A stretch of DNA of 64,000 nt. Origin: Mucilaginibacter sp. (GTDB lineage: Bacteria; Bacteroidota; Bacteroidia; Sphingobacteriales; Sphingobacteriaceae). The notes beneath the pieces were generated by a model that was not told the origin of the DNA, ran no database searches, and worked only from the letters and a program-made list of their open reading frames with translations. Positions 13,213 through 27,804 of this stretch are shown here, piece by piece. Positions within the stretch are counted from its first letter, which is position 1. The number at the start of each line of letters is the position of its first letter. Where the stretch lies: NCBI GenBank assembly GCA_025352225.1, contig JANXTT010000156.1:1-64000 (forward strand). The letters run 5' to 3'. The position numbers and the translations under genes were made by a program.

Positions 13213-14355
13213 TTACTGCTTTACAATTAAATCTTCTTTAGCAGCCCATAAACCAATATCCTGTTTAGTAAGGGCAGCAGCCATCAGATCGGGAAACTTA
13301 TCGGGAGTGCAGGCAAAAACAGGCACACCCAAATCGGCCAGGAACTGGGCGTTACGATGATCGTAAGAAGGCGCCCCATCATCGTTCAATGCCAAAAGTA
13401 CAACAAGCTGTACTCCGGCGGCAACCAGCTCAACAGCACGACGGCGCATTTCGTTCACATTACCACCTTCATACAAATCGGTAATCAGCACCAGTACAGT
13501 ATCGGCAGGCTTGGTCACTATTTGCTGACAGTAAGTTAAGGCTGCATTAATGTCCGTACCTCCACCAAGCTGTACACCAAACAACAACTCAACGGGGTCG
13601 GTCAGCTCTTCCGTTAAATCGGCAACGGCAGTGTCAAAAACCACCATTTTTGTTTTAATAGCTGGTATAGAAGCCATTACACTACCAAATATACCCGAGT
13701 AAACTACGGATGAACCCATCGAACCGCTTTGATCAAGGCATAAGATTACATCTTTTAGTGACGACCGCTTGCGCCCATAACCCACCCGGCTTTCGGGAAT
13801 GATAGTTTTGTATTCGGGTTGATAATGCTTTAGATTTTTAAGAATGGTAGCACCCCAGTTAATTTCTTGGTGGCGGGGGCGCGTATTTCTAATACTTCTG
13901 TTTAAACTTCCGGTTATAGCCTGCCGGGTAGGTTCGGCCAGTTTTTTTACCAGTTCATCTACTACTTTGCGCACCACTTGCCGGGCTGTATCTTTGGTTT
14001 TATCAGGGATTACGCGGCTCAGGGTCATTAAAGTGGCTACCAAATGCACGTCGGGCTCAATGTTTTCCAACATTTCTTTTTCAAAAAGCATCTGGGTTAA
14101 ATTGAGGCGTTTTAATGCGTCTTGTTGCATTACCTGCACTACACTAGCCGGAAAGAATGTGCGGATATCACCCAGCCACCGGCTCACGTTTGGTGATGAC
14201 GCACCCAGGCCTCCGCTTTTATCACTATCATATAACGCTTCAAGCGTACGGTCAACTTTCAGGTCGGCTTCATCCAGATCAAACTGTGTTCCTTCCTGCT
14301 GATGGCCACCCAGGATCAACCGCCATTTACGCAGGTGTGGTGCTTCAATCTCCAT
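13213..14355 (-). CDS. vWA domain protein (MoxR-associated)
   Basis: MIDAS motifs DQSGSMGSS, GGGTD, TDLYEGG intact. Confidence 0.85.
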   Translation of the reverse strand: MEIEAPHLRKWRLILGGHQQEGTQFDLDEADLKVDRTLEALYDSDKSGGLGASSPNVSRWLGDIRTFFPASVVQVMQQDALKRLNLTQMLFEKEMLENIEPDVHLVATLMTLSRVIPDKTKDTARQVVRKVVDELVKKLAEPTRQAITGSLNRSIRNTRPRHQEINWGATILKNLKHYQPEYKTIIPESRVGYGRKRSSLKDVILCLDQSGSMGSSVVYSGIFGSVMASIPAIKTKMVVFDTAVADLTEELTDPVELLFGVQLGGGTDINAALTYCQQIVTKPADTVLVLITDLYEGGNVNEMRRRAVELVAAGVQLVVLLALNDDGAPSYDHRNAQFLADLGVPVFACTPDKFPDLMAAALTKQDIGLWAAKEDLIVKQ

Positions 14356-14356
14356 T

Positions 14357-16612
14357 CTATTCGCTGTTGTTAATGGTTAAACCTAATAGTTCCATAATTA
14401 CTGGCAGGCCTTGTTTGGCCCTTTCTGTATCAAAGTTTATAATAACGGTGGGGCGCTGTTGGCCGGCAGTTCCACCTGTACGCACCTTTTCCCCCAGCTT
14501 TCTACGTTCCGGACTTGAAAAATTGGCAAATGTGCGGCGCAGTAATGGCAACACCTGCATAAAAATATCATCGCTTAAACCAGATACCCAGTTATCAATT
14601 ACCTGCCATTGGTGCTCATCGAGCAGCAATAACGTGCCACTGCCTTTCAAAAAGCCTTCCAGCCAGGCCGCTGAAATCACAGGTGCGGTAGCTGCAGACA
14701 TCGTATAGCCAAAGTATTGCATCAATTGGTTGGCAGTTAACAGTTTACTATCGTTTAGCAAACGTATACTGTAACCGCAAACTACCGGCGATGTGTTTTT
14801 ATTACCTGCAATTATCTGCAAAGTTTGCTGCCAGCTTAAAGTTGTATCGGGCTCCTGCATCAGGTTAATACCATCATTTAATTTATAAAATAAACCAAGC
14901 AATTGCTGGGCGGCATCATCATCAATAGCCACACAGGCATTAGGCAAACTGATGCAGATACGGGTAATGATACTGCTAATGATACTTAATACTATTGTGG
15001 CATCCGTTTTACGTACGTTGCCATAACGGGCAACGGTAATTAACCCCGGCACAACTTCCATTAACTCAATCACATCAGCCGATGCAGCCGCTAAGTTGTT
15101 TAACCGATGAATTAACATCTGAATAGCTTCGGGCAGTTCGGCCGGGATACTTTTCTCCAACAAATCGCTAATCACTTTCAGGTCGGTAGCCTCTTTCGCC
15201 TGATTTAAAACACTATTTGCCGAAGCCTCTAAAACAGTATTGCCTAAATTGCCGCGCTCTATAATTTCAACAGAATACCCGGGATCCCATTGCAGGCGCC
15301 ATTGTTCTTTAAAAGTTCCCTTACCCGCAACGTGTTGCTGACGGCCCCATTGGATGCCCAATAAAGTAAGCCTATGCAGAAAAATGCTCCGTTCCAGATC
15401 AGTATCTTTACGAAGATCGAGTGTGTAATCTTTAAAATCGGCTGTAGCTGGCAGCCTTAATTTCTTTTGCTGTTTTTCAATATCCAGTTGCAGCGGTGGT
15501 TTAGGTATTTCAACTGGCACTTCGCCTATCTGATGGCCAACAATCAATTCATCATGTACAAGCTTCAATAAGATGCTTTCGCCGTTACAGAGCACGCTCA
15601 GTGTAGCTTCATTCAATTCCTCTAATCCCACCTTTGGCAGTCCGCGTAACGAAGCAAGTGATTCGGCTAAACGCACAGCCTCTATAACATGCGCGACTGA
15701 AGTATCCATTTGCTGCTTGCGGAACAATTGGGCAACATGGGCCATCCACAAAGTGCCATCATCGTGCTTATGATGCCAAACATGATTATACCATCCCGGT
15801 GAGTTAATGCCGGCGCCATAGCCACTGTAAAAACTTAAGCGGCTAAATGTCCAGGGTATCCAGGTACATTCGATTTTTACCTTAGGCAAACCTTTCAATA
15901 ATTCGTTATCATCTTTTTGTGATGCTTTATTTTGCAGGGCGGGCACATGCCATGCTCCGCAAATAACCGCGATGGTGTGGAACATTTCCTTTTCGGTTTG
16001 CCGGATAGAACGGCGCATATAAGCTTCGCGCAATTGTTCAAGTTTTTTATCTTTTTGGGGGATGCTTTCACGCAGGGCTTGCATCGCTTCGGCTACAGCA
16101 TCAAATACTTCATCGTTGTTTAAGCGATATTCAAAAGTATGTTCCCACCATTTTTCGTCGTCGGTAAAACCGGCCGCATCCGATAAATAGCTGATGGGGG
16201 CTTTATTTAAGTGTTCATAAGATTGTGCTTCCAGATTGATTTTATCGCGATTAACGGAAATATCTTCTTCCTTTTGTTCACGCTGTTCTTTCTCTATCAG
16301 CATTTGGTTACCCGCAGGCAGATCCATAAAACGCACATGAATGTTTTGCTTACGCGCATACAGGATAGCCTGCCACTCGGGCGAAAAATCTGCAAAGGGA
16401 TAAAACACCGAACACTGCGGATTATCCGGCTGATAACAAAGCAAAGCCACTGGCGGTTTCAGATCGGCATGCCCCACCCATTGTAGCATGGCATCAGCCT
16501 CCGGTGGCCCTTCCACCAGTACAATATCCGGCTTAACCGATTCCAGGAATGCTTTCACATTTCTTGCCGAACCGGGCCCGTGGTGACGTATGCCTAATAT
16601 ATTTATGGCCAT
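14357..16612 (-). CDS. DUF5682-like protein with TraB/ChaN-type motifs
   Basis: MAINILGIRHHGPGSARNVKAFLESVKPDIVLVEGPPEADAM and VICGAWHVPAL; 751 aa; 1-nt gap to vWA gene. Confidence 0.75.
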   Translation of the reverse strand: MAINILGIRHHGPGSARNVKAFLESVKPDIVLVEGPPEADAMLQWVGHADLKPPVALLCYQPDNPQCSVFYPFADFSPEWQAILYARKQNIHVRFMDLPAGNQMLIEKEQREQKEEDISVNRDKINLEAQSYEHLNKAPISYLSDAAGFTDDEKWWEHTFEYRLNNDEVFDAVAEAMQALRESIPQKDKKLEQLREAYMRRSIRQTEKEMFHTIAVICGAWHVPALQNKASQKDDNELLKGLPKVKIECTWIPWTFSRLSFYSGYGAGINSPGWYNHVWHHKHDDGTLWMAHVAQLFRKQQMDTSVAHVIEAVRLAESLASLRGLPKVGLEELNEATLSVLCNGESILLKLVHDELIVGHQIGEVPVEIPKPPLQLDIEKQQKKLRLPATADFKDYTLDLRKDTDLERSIFLHRLTLLGIQWGRQQHVAGKGTFKEQWRLQWDPGYSVEIIERGNLGNTVLEASANSVLNQAKEATDLKVISDLLEKSIPAELPEAIQMLIHRLNNLAAASADVIELMEVVPGLITVARYGNVRKTDATIVLSIISSIITRICISLPNACVAIDDDAAQQLLGLFYKLNDGINLMQEPDTTLSWQQTLQIIAGNKNTSPVVCGYSIRLLNDSKLLTANQLMQYFGYTMSAATAPVISAAWLEGFLKGSGTLLLLDEHQWQVIDNWVSGLSDDIFMQVLPLLRRTFANFSSPERRKLGEKVRTGGTAGQQRPTVIINFDTERAKQGLPVIMELLGLTINNSE

Positions 16613-16630
16613 CTATTGCTGTTATGTTAA

Positions 16631-17707
16631 TTATAAGTCGCGGCAGGCGCGGTAAATATCGCTCCAGTCACTGCGTGTTTTCACTACTGTTTCCAGGTAT
16701 TCCTGCCAAACCAGCTTATCCTGCACCGGATCTTTTATTACCGACCCAATAATGCTGGCCGCCACATCTGCCGCCTTTAAAGTCCCATCGCCAAAGTAGG
16801 CAGCCATTGATAAGCCACTATTCACTACCGAAATGGCTTCGGCGGTGCTTAGCGTACCTGTAGGCATTTTAATTTTGGTTTTGCCATCGAGTGTTACACC
16901 GCTGCGCAGTTCGCGGAAAATGGTTACAATCCGGCGGATCTCTTGTAGCGCGGGTGGTTCTACCGGGAGTTCCATCACCTTTTCAAAACTTTCTACCCGC
17001 CGGCGTACTATATCAATTTCTTCCTCAATAGAATCAGGCAAGGGCAATATCACGGTATTGAATCGTCGTTTTAAAGCGCTTGATAATTCATTAACACCTT
17101 TATCGCGGTTATTGGCGGTAGCAATAATATTGAAACCCTTTATAGCCTGAACTTCCATATTAAGTTCAGGGACAGGTAATGTTTTTTCGGACAGAATGGT
17201 GATCAGCGTATCCTGCACATCGGCACCTATCCGGGTTAACTCTTCCAACCTGACGATTTTACCATCTTTCATAGCTCGCATTACCGGGGTTTCTACCAAT
17301 GCACCCGCTGAAGGGCCTTCGGCTATCAGCCGGGCATAATTCCAGCCATAACGCACTGATTCCTCGCTGGTACCGGCGGTTCCCTGAATGATAAGTGTTG
17401 AATCGCCGCTTACGCCAGCCGCCAAATGTTCGCTTACCCAGCTTTTAGCTGTGCCCGGTAAGCCGTATAATAGTAAAGCACGGTCAGTAGTGAGCGTGGC
17501 CACAGCGATTTCCATCAGGCGGCGGTTGCCGATATATTTGGGTGATACCTGAAATCCGTTTTTGAGTTTACCACCTATCAGATAAGTAACTACCGATTGC
17601 GGCGAAAGCACCCAGTTGGCCGGGCGCTTATCATTGTCCTGTTTTTTAAGTTCTTCCAGTTCGTGAGCAAATAATTGCTCTGCATGCTGACGTAATAGCT
17701 GTGACAT
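16631..17707 (-). CDS. MoxR-type AAA+ ATPase
   Basis: Walker A LLYGLPGTAKSW; VRLEELTRIGADVQDTLITILSEKTLPVPE; NIIATANNRDKGVNELSSALKRRF. Confidence 0.9.
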   Translation of the reverse strand: MSQLLRQHAEQLFAHELEELKKQDNDKRPANWVLSPQSVVTYLIGGKLKNGFQVSPKYIGNRRLMEIAVATLTTDRALLLYGLPGTAKSWVSEHLAAGVSGDSTLIIQGTAGTSEESVRYGWNYARLIAEGPSAGALVETPVMRAMKDGKIVRLEELTRIGADVQDTLITILSEKTLPVPELNMEVQAIKGFNIIATANNRDKGVNELSSALKRRFNTVILPLPDSIEEEIDIVRRRVESFEKVMELPVEPPALQEIRRIVTIFRELRSGVTLDGKTKIKMPTGTLSTAEAISVVNSGLSMAAYFGDGTLKAADVAASIIGSVIKDPVQDKLVWQEYLETVVKTRSDWSDIYRACRDL

Positions 17708-17717
17708 ATTAAGGTAT

Positions 17718-19199
17718 TTATACGTTAAAAGCTTTAAGTATTTGTTGCTTTAAGCCCAGTAATTTAATTAAATGTTCTTTGCCTTTTTCCCAGGCATTTT
17801 GCAAATTAGCATCTTTCGGTTTCACTTTTTCAAGCTGATCTATAATGCCTGCCGGGATTAGTTTGGTATGTTTATTAAAGAAAGCGCGATTATATTCATA
17901 AGGATGATTAGCCATTTCACGAAGTACCAGTATTGCAAACTCAGTACCCCATTCGTGATTTAATCTCAAGGCATAATGGATCGTGTTTTTTGCCTCTATC
18001 TTTAAAAACCGTGCAAGATATTTCTCCTGCTCGTTAGTGGTCATCATATCCAAAAAGTCGGTATAAAAACCTGGCTGATGCAGAAAGTAAGAGATCCATT
18101 CTTTCTGCTTAAAGCGCGAAACAGCCAATCCTAAAGCGGGTACTTTATCATTAGCGTATTTTTCAAAATATTCAAACACCTGTGCCGGCGCAGATTCAAA
18201 CTGCTTTTCCCAAAACGATGGCGGCACGGCACTTATCAGTTGGTGTAAAATAAAACTTTCATCTGTAAATGAGGCTTTTTGACCAGCTAATTTTTCGATT
18301 CCTGATTTAAAAATGCTTTCATCTACATTTAACGGCAACTTTTGCTGGATGGATAGCTTGGTCATCATCCCAAATAAAGCTTTCTCTTTTTTAAGGATAA
18401 CAGATTCTTTCAATAAATCCTGATATTGATTTACGATAGATGAGCCCGGTATCAATTTAAGTAAGGCTAATGCCTCGTCCTTTACTTTTTGTCCTTTTTC
18501 GTACAACAAACCTTCCAGCCATTCAAAATCGTTCGCGCCTATATTTACACGCAGTGTTTTCAGTAAATCCACTTTGCTTGCCGCGGTTTCCTGCGCCCAG
18601 GTTTGCTGTAGCCATTCCCTTGCTTGTTCCGGATTAGAATGCCTTAACTTTTTAAGTACATTAACCCGTTCATCAGGCTTACCAGTCTCCCATGTTTCCT
18701 GATCGGATATTGCACCAAAATAATTCCAGACCGGATTTAACTTACTTAACCACAATCCGCGGTTACCGCTGCACGTAATAACCAATGGCTGTAACAATTT
18801 ATCTTTTAATGCAGCATCTAATACAGCGGGCAAAACATCGGGCAAAAGTAGCCTTTCACCATTATTACAACAACTCAACCATAGCATCAGCAGGGCTGTA
18901 TTATCTTCATTTAGGATATCATTTAAAATCGTCGCAGCCTCTTCGGAACAATAGGGTTTTGCTTCATCAGGTGCTATGGTTGTCGGCAACTCCTTTTGCT
19001 CAATTAGTGTAAATCCGCATTGACGATAGTTGTAAATTGCAGCCGCTTTTTGCAAAAACTTTGCTTCTTTATCTGACGATTCAACAGCATCGATCATTGC
19101 TACAATTTCTGCCACCTCATTGGGCAATTCTGCATTCCCCGGTATCGGTTTGTGAGTACCCAGCATAGCGGTATTAATTACATATTCCCAGGCTTTCAT
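17718..19199 (-). CDS. DUF5691-like protein, alpha-helical repeat
   Basis: 493 aa, N-terminus EYVINTAMLGTHK; position between SWIM and MoxR genes fits the conserved DUF5691 neighbourhood. Confidence 0.65.
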   Translation of the reverse strand: MKAWEYVINTAMLGTHKPIPGNAELPNEVAEIVAMIDAVESSDKEAKFLQKAAAIYNYRQCGFTLIEQKELPTTIAPDEAKPYCSEEAATILNDILNEDNTALLMLWLSCCNNGERLLLPDVLPAVLDAALKDKLLQPLVITCSGNRGLWLSKLNPVWNYFGAISDQETWETGKPDERVNVLKKLRHSNPEQAREWLQQTWAQETAASKVDLLKTLRVNIGANDFEWLEGLLYEKGQKVKDEALALLKLIPGSSIVNQYQDLLKESVILKKEKALFGMMTKLSIQQKLPLNVDESIFKSGIEKLAGQKASFTDESFILHQLISAVPPSFWEKQFESAPAQVFEYFEKYANDKVPALGLAVSRFKQKEWISYFLHQPGFYTDFLDMMTTNEQEKYLARFLKIEAKNTIHYALRLNHEWGTEFAILVLREMANHPYEYNRAFFNKHTKLIPAGIIDQLEKVKPKDANLQNAWEKGKEHLIKLLGLKQQILKAFNV

Positions 19200-20506
19200 C
19201 AGATGGCTTTATAATTGTTTTGATACCATACACCTAATGGGCGATACTCGTTCTCTTTACCGATTACAGCCATGGTTAAAGGGGCTCCACCACTTAGGGC
19301 CATCAGTTGCCATATGTTTTTAAAATCCAGAACTATGCGGCATAAAAAACCTTCCTGATCTTGCAGCCACCATTGCTTTTGATAATGCAGCGGTTTTAGT
19401 GCAGCAACTATAAATGGCATTTCGTTTCTGAAAGGTAGTTTGCTATTTAATCCGGTTTCTTGTTCGGCCACCTGGTTCCAGCCCGTAAAGCTCTGTATAC
19501 CAAAGGCAACCCCAGATTTGGCAATAGTGTAATTTTTAATTATAGCCCTGAAAGGTACAGCTGAAGGAAAATAGATTAACTCCGCATCCAGATACATGCC
19601 CGTGCTCAATGATAATTGACCCACTTGCCCGCGTGCTATAAACTGTAAAACAAGCGCGTACTGATTGCTTTTCAATCCGTATAACCAATTTTGCTCAACG
19701 GTGATCTGTTGCTCATCGCGAGTTTCTTTAGCAATAACCAACCATGTGTCGGTTAGGCCATTCTGCTTTTTAAGGTCATCCTGATTAAAGGTAAAACCAA
19801 TAGCCGAGCGTATATCCTGTTGTAATAATGGATTAATACCTGCCAAATGCTGATAACTTTCGGCAACGAGGTATAACTTCAATAACTTATCCATAAAATT
19901 GCTTTGCCAGCCTTCCTTCCAAAAATCGGCTGCTCCAAGCTCTCTAACCATTGCAGCTAATCCTGATGCCTGGGCATCAACCATACGGCGGGCCATATTA
20001 TCCCAATAAGCTACTTCCTTTTCGGGAACTGTTAAGATGCCATTACGAACAATATCTTTTATCCAGATCAACAACTCGTTTATCCCCGAATTTACTTTTT
20101 GCTCGCGCGATTGCTGGCGTTTGGCCTGAGCCGTTTCATCAACTGGCTTTTCGGCTTTTTCGGTTTTCTTTTCTTCTTTTTCAGATCGCTTGCTAATCCA
20201 ATCATTTACCCAGGCGGGCGTATCCGTATTAGAAAATAAACCTGGCTGGCGCGCGCGCAATAATAATAAACCAATACCATGTTTACACGGGAATTTACGG
20301 CTTGGGCACGAACATTTGAAAGCGATAGCAGTCAAATCAACCTGTGTTTGATACGGCTTGCTGCCGCTGCCCTGGCATTCGCCCCAAAGGGCCTGATGGT
20401 TAAATCCTTTAGTAACCCATTTGGCAGGTACAGCCAAATCTCTCCCGGCTTTTTTTGAAGCTTCATCGGGTGCGAGGGCATATATTTGGTCTTCTGTTAG
20501 TTGCAA
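19199..20506 (-). CDS. SWIM zinc finger family protein
   Basis: FKCSCPSRKFPCKHGIGLLLL (CxCxnCxH SWIM signature); overlaps the next gene by 1 nt. Confidence 0.9.
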   Translation of the reverse strand: MQLTEDQIYALAPDEASKKAGRDLAVPAKWVTKGFNHQALWGECQGSGSKPYQTQVDLTAIAFKCSCPSRKFPCKHGIGLLLLRARQPGLFSNTDTPAWVNDWISKRSEKEEKKTEKAEKPVDETAQAKRQQSREQKVNSGINELLIWIKDIVRNGILTVPEKEVAYWDNMARRMVDAQASGLAAMVRELGAADFWKEGWQSNFMDKLLKLYLVAESYQHLAGINPLLQQDIRSAIGFTFNQDDLKKQNGLTDTWLVIAKETRDEQQITVEQNWLYGLKSNQYALVLQFIARGQVGQLSLSTGMYLDAELIYFPSAVPFRAIIKNYTIAKSGVAFGIQSFTGWNQVAEQETGLNSKLPFRNEMPFIVAALKPLHYQKQWWLQDQEGFLCRIVLDFKNIWQLMALSGGAPLTMAVIGKENEYRPLGVWYQNNYKAI

Positions 20507-20590
20507 ATCGATCTGATTATTGATGAAAAAGGCTTGTATTGTTTTGCCCTAAAAATAGTATAAAAATTAAAAGATGAAGCAGGAATATCT

Positions 20591-20624
20591 ATAAAAAACC
20601 GCCTCATGAATTTCATAAGGCGGT
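20591..20624 (-). terminator. Intrinsic terminator of the RNA ligase/HD-Pnk unit
   Basis: accgcctcatgaa-t-ttcataaggcggt (one mismatch) with an A-run on the left (T-run in minus-strand transcript), 11 nt past the HD-Pnk stop. Confidence 0.65.
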
Positions 20625-20634
20625 CTATTTGTGC

Positions 20635-21741
20635 TCAACTCACATGGTAGCTTACTTCATGCGCTTCCCACAAAGTCGGCACTTCCAGTTTATGGGTTAG
20701 TTTATCTATAACCGATGTAGGTACCACGGCATCCCGATTTTTATTTTGCCCAGGCAAATGCTGATGCGATACTTCTATATAAACAATGTTCACCCTTGCC
20801 TTATAGGTGGTGAATAGATCGATGAGTTGCATTCGCATCTGGCTGGTGGTATTGGTAGCATTCCAGATAAAGGATTCTTGCCTGCGCAGATAAACCCTTG
20901 CCTGCTCTTTTGCTTCCTGTATTATTTTCCCGTTGCCTGTCTTATCGGTTGGTAAAATACCACGTTCCATACGCAAATTATCTAAAGAAATGACCTGCCA
21001 ATCCGGGTAATGCTCTTTAATAAATGTGTCTTTGCCTGCACCGGGCAAACCACTCATTAAAATCACTTCAAATGTAGGTTCTTCAAACGGAACATAATCA
21101 AGGTAAGCATCATCATGTTGCATATAATACATTTGTGCCTGCCCTGATGCAAACTCACGGGCTTTGCCCCAACAATCATTTTCCTGGCACAATGCTTCAA
21201 AGCAGTCGATGCGATAAAGCATCTCCTCCTGATCGTCACAAACACGGCCCAACATATCAGCACGAGCCAGCAAAGCCAACCACTGTGTATTTACTTCCAT
21301 GCTGGCTTTTACCAACGCTTTCAATGGATCTGGCTTTTCAAACAACCATATCGGCAAACCATGATGCCGCACCAAACCAACGATCTGTTCGCGAACAGCT
21401 AAAGGCGAAGGCTCATTTATGTAAAGTAATAGCCTTGCAAACTGGGAACCTTTACGTGCATGGCCGTTTGACGTAATGCTGCCATCAGCCTCGAAAACCG
21501 TAGTGCTATATTTTTCAACATCATGCAATAATGCGGCTGTCCATAGTATTTCTTGCTCTTCTACAGACAAGACCTGAAAAGCTGGTTCAATTTTCAAGGC
21601 AGCCAGTACCATTTGCGTATGTATAGCCACATTGCCTTCGGCATGATAGCGCGGATCTTGCTGAACATCGTTCATGCGTTTTACCCAATTAAATTGTTCT
21701 TCTAGATATGTCCAATCTTTGTTTTCACTAAAGGTCCACAT
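20635..21741 (-). CDS. HD-Pnk: N-terminal HD phosphoesterase and C-terminal polynucleotide 5'-kinase
   Basis: LLHDVEKYS and VRHHG HD residues; Walker A MSGLPGAGKDTF. The start at 21741 (MWTFSENK) has a strong SD (aaggaggtaagtATG); the track start is 21756. Confidence 0.85.
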   Translation of the reverse strand: MWTFSENKDWTYLEEQFNWVKRMNDVQQDPRYHAEGNVAIHTQMVLAALKIEPAFQVLSVEEQEILWTAALLHDVEKYSTTVFEADGSITSNGHARKGSQFARLLLYINEPSPLAVREQIVGLVRHHGLPIWLFEKPDPLKALVKASMEVNTQWLALLARADMLGRVCDDQEEMLYRIDCFEALCQENDCWGKAREFASGQAQMYYMQHDDAYLDYVPFEEPTFEVILMSGLPGAGKDTFIKEHYPDWQVISLDNLRMERGILPTDKTGNGKIIQEAKEQARVYLRRQESFIWNATNTTSQMRMQLIDLFTTYKARVNIVYIEVSHQHLPGQNKNRDAVVPTSVIDKLTHKLEVPTLWEAHEVSYHVS

Positions 21742-22435
21742 ACTTACCTCCTTCATTTGTTAATGGTGCCCGTTTCCAGTTCCTTGTCCAGTGTTCATCG
21801 GTTTTAACGTGCCCCTTTCGTACATATTTAAATACATTTTGCGCAAAAGCATCAACGGAATAGCTATCGGCATTACGACTAACGATACCTTCCATGGTTG
21901 TTGCTTTCTGATCATACACATCATAAGGATCAAACGCGCCCGGGCCATTTACCAGTATCAGCATTTCCGCTTCAAATATATCTCGTTCCTTCGGTATACT
22001 TTCTGTCTTAACTACCGGAACAGTAGGCAGATCAAGCATATTTGCATAAAATTGAGTTTCCTCCCAGCTAAGCCACCGGTCATGCTCACGTATCCCGAAC
22101 ACATAAAAATGGTATTCCAGTATGCCATATTCAATTGAGTGTATCGCATACAGATTCTCTCCGAAGATCTCCAAATCGCCCAGATCATTTTTAACCAGTT
22201 GCCAAAAACGCCGTAGACTTTCGGTCCAGGATGACGTAGTTGGTGCCGCGTGTGAGCGAGCAAAAACGCCGAGTTTGGAAAGGCAATTATTCTCACCATC
22301 CAGTTTCTCGGTGTGTATTAAGTTGGGGATACACTGTAATTGTTCCCAGTAGTCGTGCGCTATACGGTCGTCGCTGGTTGTGCCCGGCGAAAACGGATAA
22401 TGATAGGTACGACCATATTTTTGTGATATAGCCAT
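21728..22435 (-). CDS. ATP-dependent RNA ligase (Rnl family)
   Basis: Nucleotidyltransferase motif I HTEKLDGENNCL, motif IV MEGIVSR, motif V VFKYVRKGHVK. Confidence 0.88.
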   Translation of the reverse strand: MAISQKYGRTYHYPFSPGTTSDDRIAHDYWEQLQCIPNLIHTEKLDGENNCLSKLGVFARSHAAPTTSSWTESLRRFWQLVKNDLGDLEIFGENLYAIHSIEYGILEYHFYVFGIREHDRWLSWEETQFYANMLDLPTVPVVKTESIPKERDIFEAEMLILVNGPGAFDPYDVYDQKATTMEGIVSRNADSYSVDAFAQNVFKYVRKGHVKTDEHWTRNWKRAPLTNEGGKYVDL

Positions 22436-22685
22436 ATTTTTAAGATTAAAATAAGAAATAGAAATTCGCTCCCTTCCTTGAGATAGGAAAGATCATAAAT
22501 TGATTTTATGCGCGGGCGATTACATGGCTCAAGACTTATAGCGTTTTTGTTGACGCAAATGTAAGAAAATAATTTATAATCTGTTATTGAAAACAATTAC
22601 TTTATCGCAAACACAAAAGCATTCGCAATAGAGTAATTATCAAATTTAAATTGGCTTTGCTGTTATAGTTTTACGAATACAAATA

Positions 22686-27713: not shown

Positions 27714-27722
27714 GATGCTTTG

Positions 27723-27804
27723 TGCGGAAGAAGGGACTCGAACCCCCACGCCTTGCGGCGCCAGATCCTAAGTCTGGTGCGGCTACCAATTACGCCACTT
27801 CCGC
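27723..27804 (-). tRNA. tRNA-Leu (anticodon UAG)
   Basis: Minus strand gcggaagtggcgtaattggtagccgcaccagactTAGgatctggcgccgcaaggcgtgggggttcgagtcccttcttccgc: acceptor gcggaag/cttccgc, anticodon stem ccaga/tctgg, long variable arm, T-arm ggttcgagtcc. CCA not encoded. Confidence 0.95.

Follow-up and report, generated by a model that had tools for sequence, protein, structure and literature searches.

Seven consecutive minus-strand genes of a Mucilaginibacter genome bring together a pair of putative RNA-repair enzymes and a tightly packed group of five genes around a MoxR AAA+ ATPase and a vWA protein, which raises the question whether they work as one system or are two modules that have become neighbours. 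They lie in the window, that is, the whole stretch of 64,000 nucleotides analysed here (contig JANXTT010000156.1, positions 1 to 64,000; assembly GCA_025352225.1). The preliminary description of this DNA proposed an RNA-damage response or conflict system in which the MoxR/vWA unit remodels a client. Our analysis suggests that the seven genes belong to two known kinds of module, whose association is loose and probably non-random.

Two predicted transcription units and a leader RNA in the window

All seven ORFs are open on the minus strand at the positions given in the preliminary description, and Pfam named all seven products in the same way, so that the gene identities and the division into two groups were correct. 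The first group consists of an ATP-dependent RNA ligase of 235 aa (21728–22435; RNA_ligase, PF09414, 1.6e-29) and an HD-Pnk of 373 aa (20635–21756), namely an HD phosphoesterase and a 5'-OH polynucleotide kinase in one chain (AAA_33 kinase plus HD in Pfam). The ligase has all of the nucleotidyltransferase motifs KxDG (here KLDGEN), E, E and K, and its catalytic residues K44, E93, E182 and K203 are invariant among 10 homologues. In the HD-Pnk, H78, D79, D167 and G241-K242 of the P-loop are invariant among 11 homologues, and H38 and H46 are nearly so. The two genes share 29 nt, an overlap absent from the earlier account. The HD domain would remove 2',3'-cyclic or 3'-phosphate ends, the kinase would phosphorylate the 5'-OH and the KxDG ligase would then seal, by which the pair may mend breaks in RNA or in another nucleic acid.

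The second group encodes, also on the minus strand, a SWIM zinc-finger protein of 435 aa (19199–20506; CxCx6CxH; Pfam 1e-4), a DUF5691 helical-repeat protein of 493 aa (17718–19199; 6.5e-90), a MoxR AAA+ ATPase (16631–17707; AAA_5/MoxR, 8e-35), a DUF5682 protein (14357–16612; 2.8e-267, spanning the entire Pfam model) and a CoxE-type vWA protein with the MIDAS motif DQSGS (13213–14355; VWA_CoxE, 4.6e-47). Their packing with a 1-nt overlap and gaps of 10, 18 and 1 nt is as previously described.

The gap of 128 nt between the HD-Pnk and SWIM genes contains an intrinsic terminator, which was also absent from the earlier account. This is a 14-bp hairpin followed by a T run (20596–20626, minus strand), and its folding energy from 20626 to 20596 is -20.6 kcal/mol with z -6.9, none of 200 shuffles being as good. 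The ligase/HD-Pnk unit is preceded by a Bacteroidota-type promoter element TACATTTG (TAnnTTTG; 22556–22563, minus strand), and the TAnnTTTG element stands at a comparable distance before the ligase in most of the Bacteroidota loci examined. The SWIM operon has a probable promoter element of its own, TATACTATTTTTA (20550–20562, minus strand), which is conserved before the SWIM gene across Mucilaginibacter. Because the terminator sits in the gap between HD-Pnk and SWIM, the sequence of the window reads as two transcription units. A single operon of all seven genes in the window is rejected on account of this terminator, and the separate promoter elements likewise point to two units. Elsewhere in the window there are a tRNA-Leu gene (27722–27804, minus strand), the sole tRNA gene within it, and a long run of more than 20 tightly packed plus-strand ORFs (35321–59874).

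A structured 5' leader (22436–22555, minus strand) lies between the promoter element and the start of the ligase gene. In most Bacteroidota loci the same interval contains the near-invariant motif TTGnGYCATGTAAT (from 22531 in the window) and, after it, hairpins, and the leader is present in the window, in two sister Mucilaginibacter species (L263 and L264) and in further loci (L199-L208 and L266-L282). In 2.6 Mb the motif was found almost exclusively upstream of this ligase, the two exceptions lying elsewhere. Of 33 leaders, 24 fold better than z -2 (mean z -2.6), and that of the window itself reaches only -0.9. Single-sequence folds and stems paired and checked by hand revealed compensatory changes in stems P1 and P3, with P1 occurring as ATCGC/GCGAT, ATTGCC/GGCAAT and TCACAGGC/GCCTGTGA. 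RNAalifold found zero pairs on the MAFFT alignment of all leaders because the stem sequences diverge, and Rfam gave no match to the leader. This leader RNA is a new by-product of the analysis, and the natural guess is that it controls ligase expression; it probably regulates the ligase/HD-Pnk unit. The motif was looked for upstream of the SWIM operon and was not found there, and shared regulation of both modules via this motif is rejected.

With regard to distribution, a ligase adjoins HD-Pnk in nearly all HD-Pnk loci examined, and the pair is found without the operon in Bacteroidota, on plasmids of Pseudomonas, Variovorax, Bosea and Deinococcus, in a Proteus record and in a large phage. Deinococcus, Runella and others share with the window the HD plus kinase architecture and the neighbouring KxDG ligase, and Deinococcus sp. 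QL22 also has an overlap of the two genes. Separately, ORFs of about 870 aa whose match to the HD-Pnk profile is confined to its kinase part were seen in seven genomes that also carry HD-Pnk (G400, G402, G404, G406, G410, G412 and G421), and these may be Pnkp-type repair enzymes.

Deinococcus also offers the grounds for supposing that the pair repairs DNA rather than RNA breaks and that the whole neighbourhood is a genotoxic-stress response. The gene for the HD-Pnk of D. radiodurans (DRB0098) shares a DNA-damage-induced operon with those for a ligase and PARG (PMC11833690), this HD-Pnk is reported to aid resistance to radiation and mitomycin C in a study cited in PMC9146567, and one Deinococcus pair (L136) lies near dinB and a photoproduct-lyase gene. 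However, the ligase of the window belongs to the RNA_ligase family PF09414, and no DNA-repair gene was seen beside it. The two systems also differ in that the DRB0098-0100 operon has PARG and another kind of ligase (PMC11833690) and the Bacteroidota pair bears the conserved leader RNA. We regard repair of DNA breaks as an unlikely role for the pair.

The five-gene operon as a relative of E. coli yehLMPQ

In a scan of species genomes, 80 DUF5682 loci were found in Bacteroidota, Cyanobacteriota, Chloroflexota, Pseudomonadota, Acidobacteriota, Verrucomicrobiota and others, and the order SWIM-DUF5691-MoxR-DUF5682-vWA is kept in most of them. The operon occurs in many phyla without the ligase/HD-Pnk pair. 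In Mucilaginibacter, nucleotide homology among copies of the operon ends at the SWIM and vWA ends, which indicates that the five genes travel as one cassette.

DUF5682 was also detected in E. coli, where yehL, yehM, yehP and yehQ encode MoxR, DUF5682, vWA and SWIM proteins, respectively. YehL, YehM and YehP match the MoxR, DUF5682 and vWA proteins of the window in identical order (phmmer 1e-68, 7e-38 and 6e-68), and the window operon, with these three homologues ordered on one strand together with a protein bearing the SWIM motif, is of the YehLMPQ type. Seven subfamilies of MoxR ATPases are recognised, and YehL is among them (PMC3893208). On the other hand, the SWIM gene is the last in E. coli (yehQ) and the first in the window, the SWIM protein as a whole showed no similarity to YehQ at the cut-off used, and DUF5691 was not found at E. 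coli yehLMPQ. Genes for DUF4132 proteins stand beside the E. coli operon, and one of them, yehI (L009), is a relative of a recurrent DUF4132 neighbour: a gene for a HEAT plus DUF4132 protein lies next to or inside the operon in nine loci (L050, L053-L056, L058, L060, L067 and L087). DUF4132 can be regarded as a sixth operon gene that recurs among loci, a new by-product of this work; it was not found in the genome of the window.

Some variants of the operon were also seen. One locus (L048/L269, genome G831) lacks SWIM and most of DUF5691 and keeps MoxR, DUF5682 and vWA intact; this genome is also without HD-Pnk. In the Chitinophagaceae genome G458 (contig C46, L196-L198) several stop codons interrupt a decaying DUF5682 gene, and in five Burkholderiaceae genomes (G702, G729, G751, G773 and G430) DUF5682 is present as two or three divergent paralogues (about 900, 350 and 310 bits).

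A fold search with the whole DUF5682 protein was swamped by its helical repeats and was repeated with the N-terminal domain alone, for which an alpha/beta model was predicted (pLDDT 91). The top Foldseek matches were one chain of Tetrahymena complex IV, whose identity is unconfirmed, and the erythromycin esterase EreC, both weak (E 3e-3 to 0.09, TM about 0.3). Tetrahymena complex IV contains a TraB-family subunit (PMC10060162), and conserved His and Glu residues are used in the TIKI superfamily (PMC6254334). In DUF5682 the motifs G7xxH10, E34 and G219xxH222 are kept, with G7, H10, E34, G219 and H222 invariant in 52 sequences. From conservation and the model, DUF5682 is probably a TIKI/TraB-like hydrolase fused to a helical-repeat C-terminal part, and this putative TIKI/TraB/EreA-like N-terminal domain is a further new by-product.

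The operon may thus be viewed as a YehLMPQ-type module extended by DUF5691, in which the MoxR AAA+ ring and the MIDAS-bearing vWA adaptor would remodel a client, most simply their operon partners, namely the predicted hydrolase DUF5682, DUF5691 and the SWIM protein. The working principle expected here is that of the RavA-ViaA and NorQ-NorD chaperone pairs, in which a vWA adaptor and an AAA+ ring remodel or mature a client (PMC3893208; PMC9976466), although their MoxR subfamily and partners differ from those of the window. In MoxR-vWA ternary conflict systems, too, the MoxR/vWA pair is encoded with further partners, but the hallmarks of these systems are a third component such as VMAP or iSTAND and effectors fused to vWA (PMC7159879). 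None of these occurs in the window set, in which a bpMoxR match also stays below the cut-off (23.2 of 27 bits), and a ternary conflict system is rejected since the diagnostic component is missing. PADLOC recognised no known anti-phage defence system, its sole hit being a weak match to IetA (6.7e-4 over 32 residues).

Adjacency and co-occurrence of the two modules

Outside Mucilaginibacter the two modules were never found side by side. We checked 87 DUF5682 loci (L010-L016 and L047-L126), two of them from Mucilaginibacter and several cut by contig ends, and found no ligase or HD-Pnk in the flanks of any, up to 10 kb on each side; the count outside the genus is thus 0/85. Within Mucilaginibacter, the two sister species mentioned above have the ligase/HD-Pnk pair immediately 3' of vWA and in the same orientation, making seven-gene clusters in the order SWIM-DUF5691-MoxR-DUF5682-vWA-Rnl-HDPnk, whereas in the window the pair is upstream of SWIM. 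About 12 kb separates the modules in a third genome of the genus. A tree of HD-Pnk places the window copy beside an unlinked one (85% identical), and those of the two sister species beside a copy whose genome has no DUF5682. Since these are separate HD-Pnk lineages, the upstream and downstream adjacencies arose separately; adjacency has arisen at least twice independently in Mucilaginibacter, on opposite sides of the operon. Both juxtapositions are of less than 150 nt and all occur in genomes under 6 Mb, and random placement would give about 0.005 adjacencies in nine genomes. The main alternative for these repeated adjacencies is a shared insertion hotspot.

The clusters of the sister species also speak for one integrated RNA-damage machine, in which the ligase and HD-Pnk, or a ribonucleoprotein that they act on, would be remodelled or recruited by MoxR/vWA together with DUF5682, DUF5691 and SWIM. 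The Ro/vWA protein of RtcB-type operons would be a rough analogue. The seven genes of the sister species are on one strand, a terminator-like site between vWA and the ligase was looked for and not found, a terminator follows HD-Pnk, and co-occurrence at the genome level also agrees with such a machine. Nevertheless, the pair retains its own promoter element and leader there even downstream of vWA, the window has a terminator and separate promoter elements, and either module is found alone in many genomes. An integrated machine appears quite improbable to us.

Co-occurrence was examined with full-length HD-Pnk (E < 1e-90) and DUF5682, the four counts below being genomes with both, HD-Pnk only, DUF5682 only and neither. 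Among 50 DUF5682-bearing genomes, a set biased to the closer relatives of the window, 26 carry full-length HD-Pnk. The excess is significant in Mucilaginibacter (9/11/5/124, one fragmented genome left out; odds ratio 20, p 3e-6), in Chitinophagaceae (9/3/9/129; 43, p 1e-7) and in Burkholderiaceae (15/6/11/164; 37, p 3e-11), odds ratios that treat related genomes as independent. No significant excess was seen among cyanobacteria (1/5/9/214, p 0.24), nor in a random sample of Bacteroidota (1/2/7/386, p 0.06), in which DUF5682 occurs in 8/396 genomes, full-length HD-Pnk in 3/396 and both only in the genome of the window. In most genomes with both modules they are far apart. The enrichment near the operon outside close relatives, on which the preliminary description had staked its proposal, is thus missing as adjacency (the 0/85 loci above) and is seen as genome-level co-occurrence in Chitinophagaceae and Burkholderiaceae.

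This pattern could come about by coincidence: accessory cassettes would pile up in large soil-bacterial genomes, their co-occurrence would follow from size, common descent and horizontal transfer, and chance or hotspot insertions would bring them side by side. Both modules are commonest in genomes of 5-9 Mb, and genome size is a confounder that explains part of the co-occurrence: in the genus Chitinophaga (53/10/6/10) it accounts for much of the odds ratio, which falls from 8.8 (p 4e-4) to 4.3 (p 0.03) with size in the model. The flanks of the operon differ in nearly every species compared, and adjacency is confined to Mucilaginibacter, both of which fit coincidence. Against it, the excess persists in three clades after stratification by size, with two-stratum Mantel-Haenszel odds ratios of 11.9 in Mucilaginibacter, 13.5 in Chitinophagaceae and 6.7 in Burkholderiaceae (bootstrap interval 0.5 to 12.8 for the last), from a rough stratification in which about 20 listed genomes per clade supplied the sizes for genomes with neither module; and two independent close juxtapositions in one genus with genomes under 6 Mb are not expected from it. 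Coincidence stays alive because of the clustering by clade and because the comparison had no neutral control gene, and we consider it a real possibility with a less than even chance.

A possible shared role of the two modules

The reading that we prefer, at about even chances, is that the pair and the operon are two independently transcribed and separately mobile modules, which co-occur and repeatedly become neighbours through usefulness under the same stress, and not as an obligatory complex. Such modules would be retained together in stressed bacteria with large genomes and would sometimes become neighbours. We infer that a shared stress may lie behind both, and a shared job of the pair and the operon is plausible. 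The functional link proposed in the preliminary description gains moderate support from the co-occurrence and the repeated juxtaposition, against which stand the separate units and the genomes with one module, and we keep it as a hypothesis. As a more specific and rather doubtful form of it, the YehLMPQ/DUF5691 operon and HD-Pnk/ligase might constitute one pathway, in which MoxR/vWA remodels damaged ribonucleoproteins for healing and sealing, with the ligase module under the new leader RNA.

Finally, the leader RNA of the ligase gene provides a handle on the induction of bacterial RNA repair. YehLMPQ-type operons are widespread, including in E. coli K-12, and the literature that we searched gives no job for them. 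If the operon truly tracks an RNA end-healing and sealing pair, this would be the first concrete hypothesis for this MoxR subfamily.
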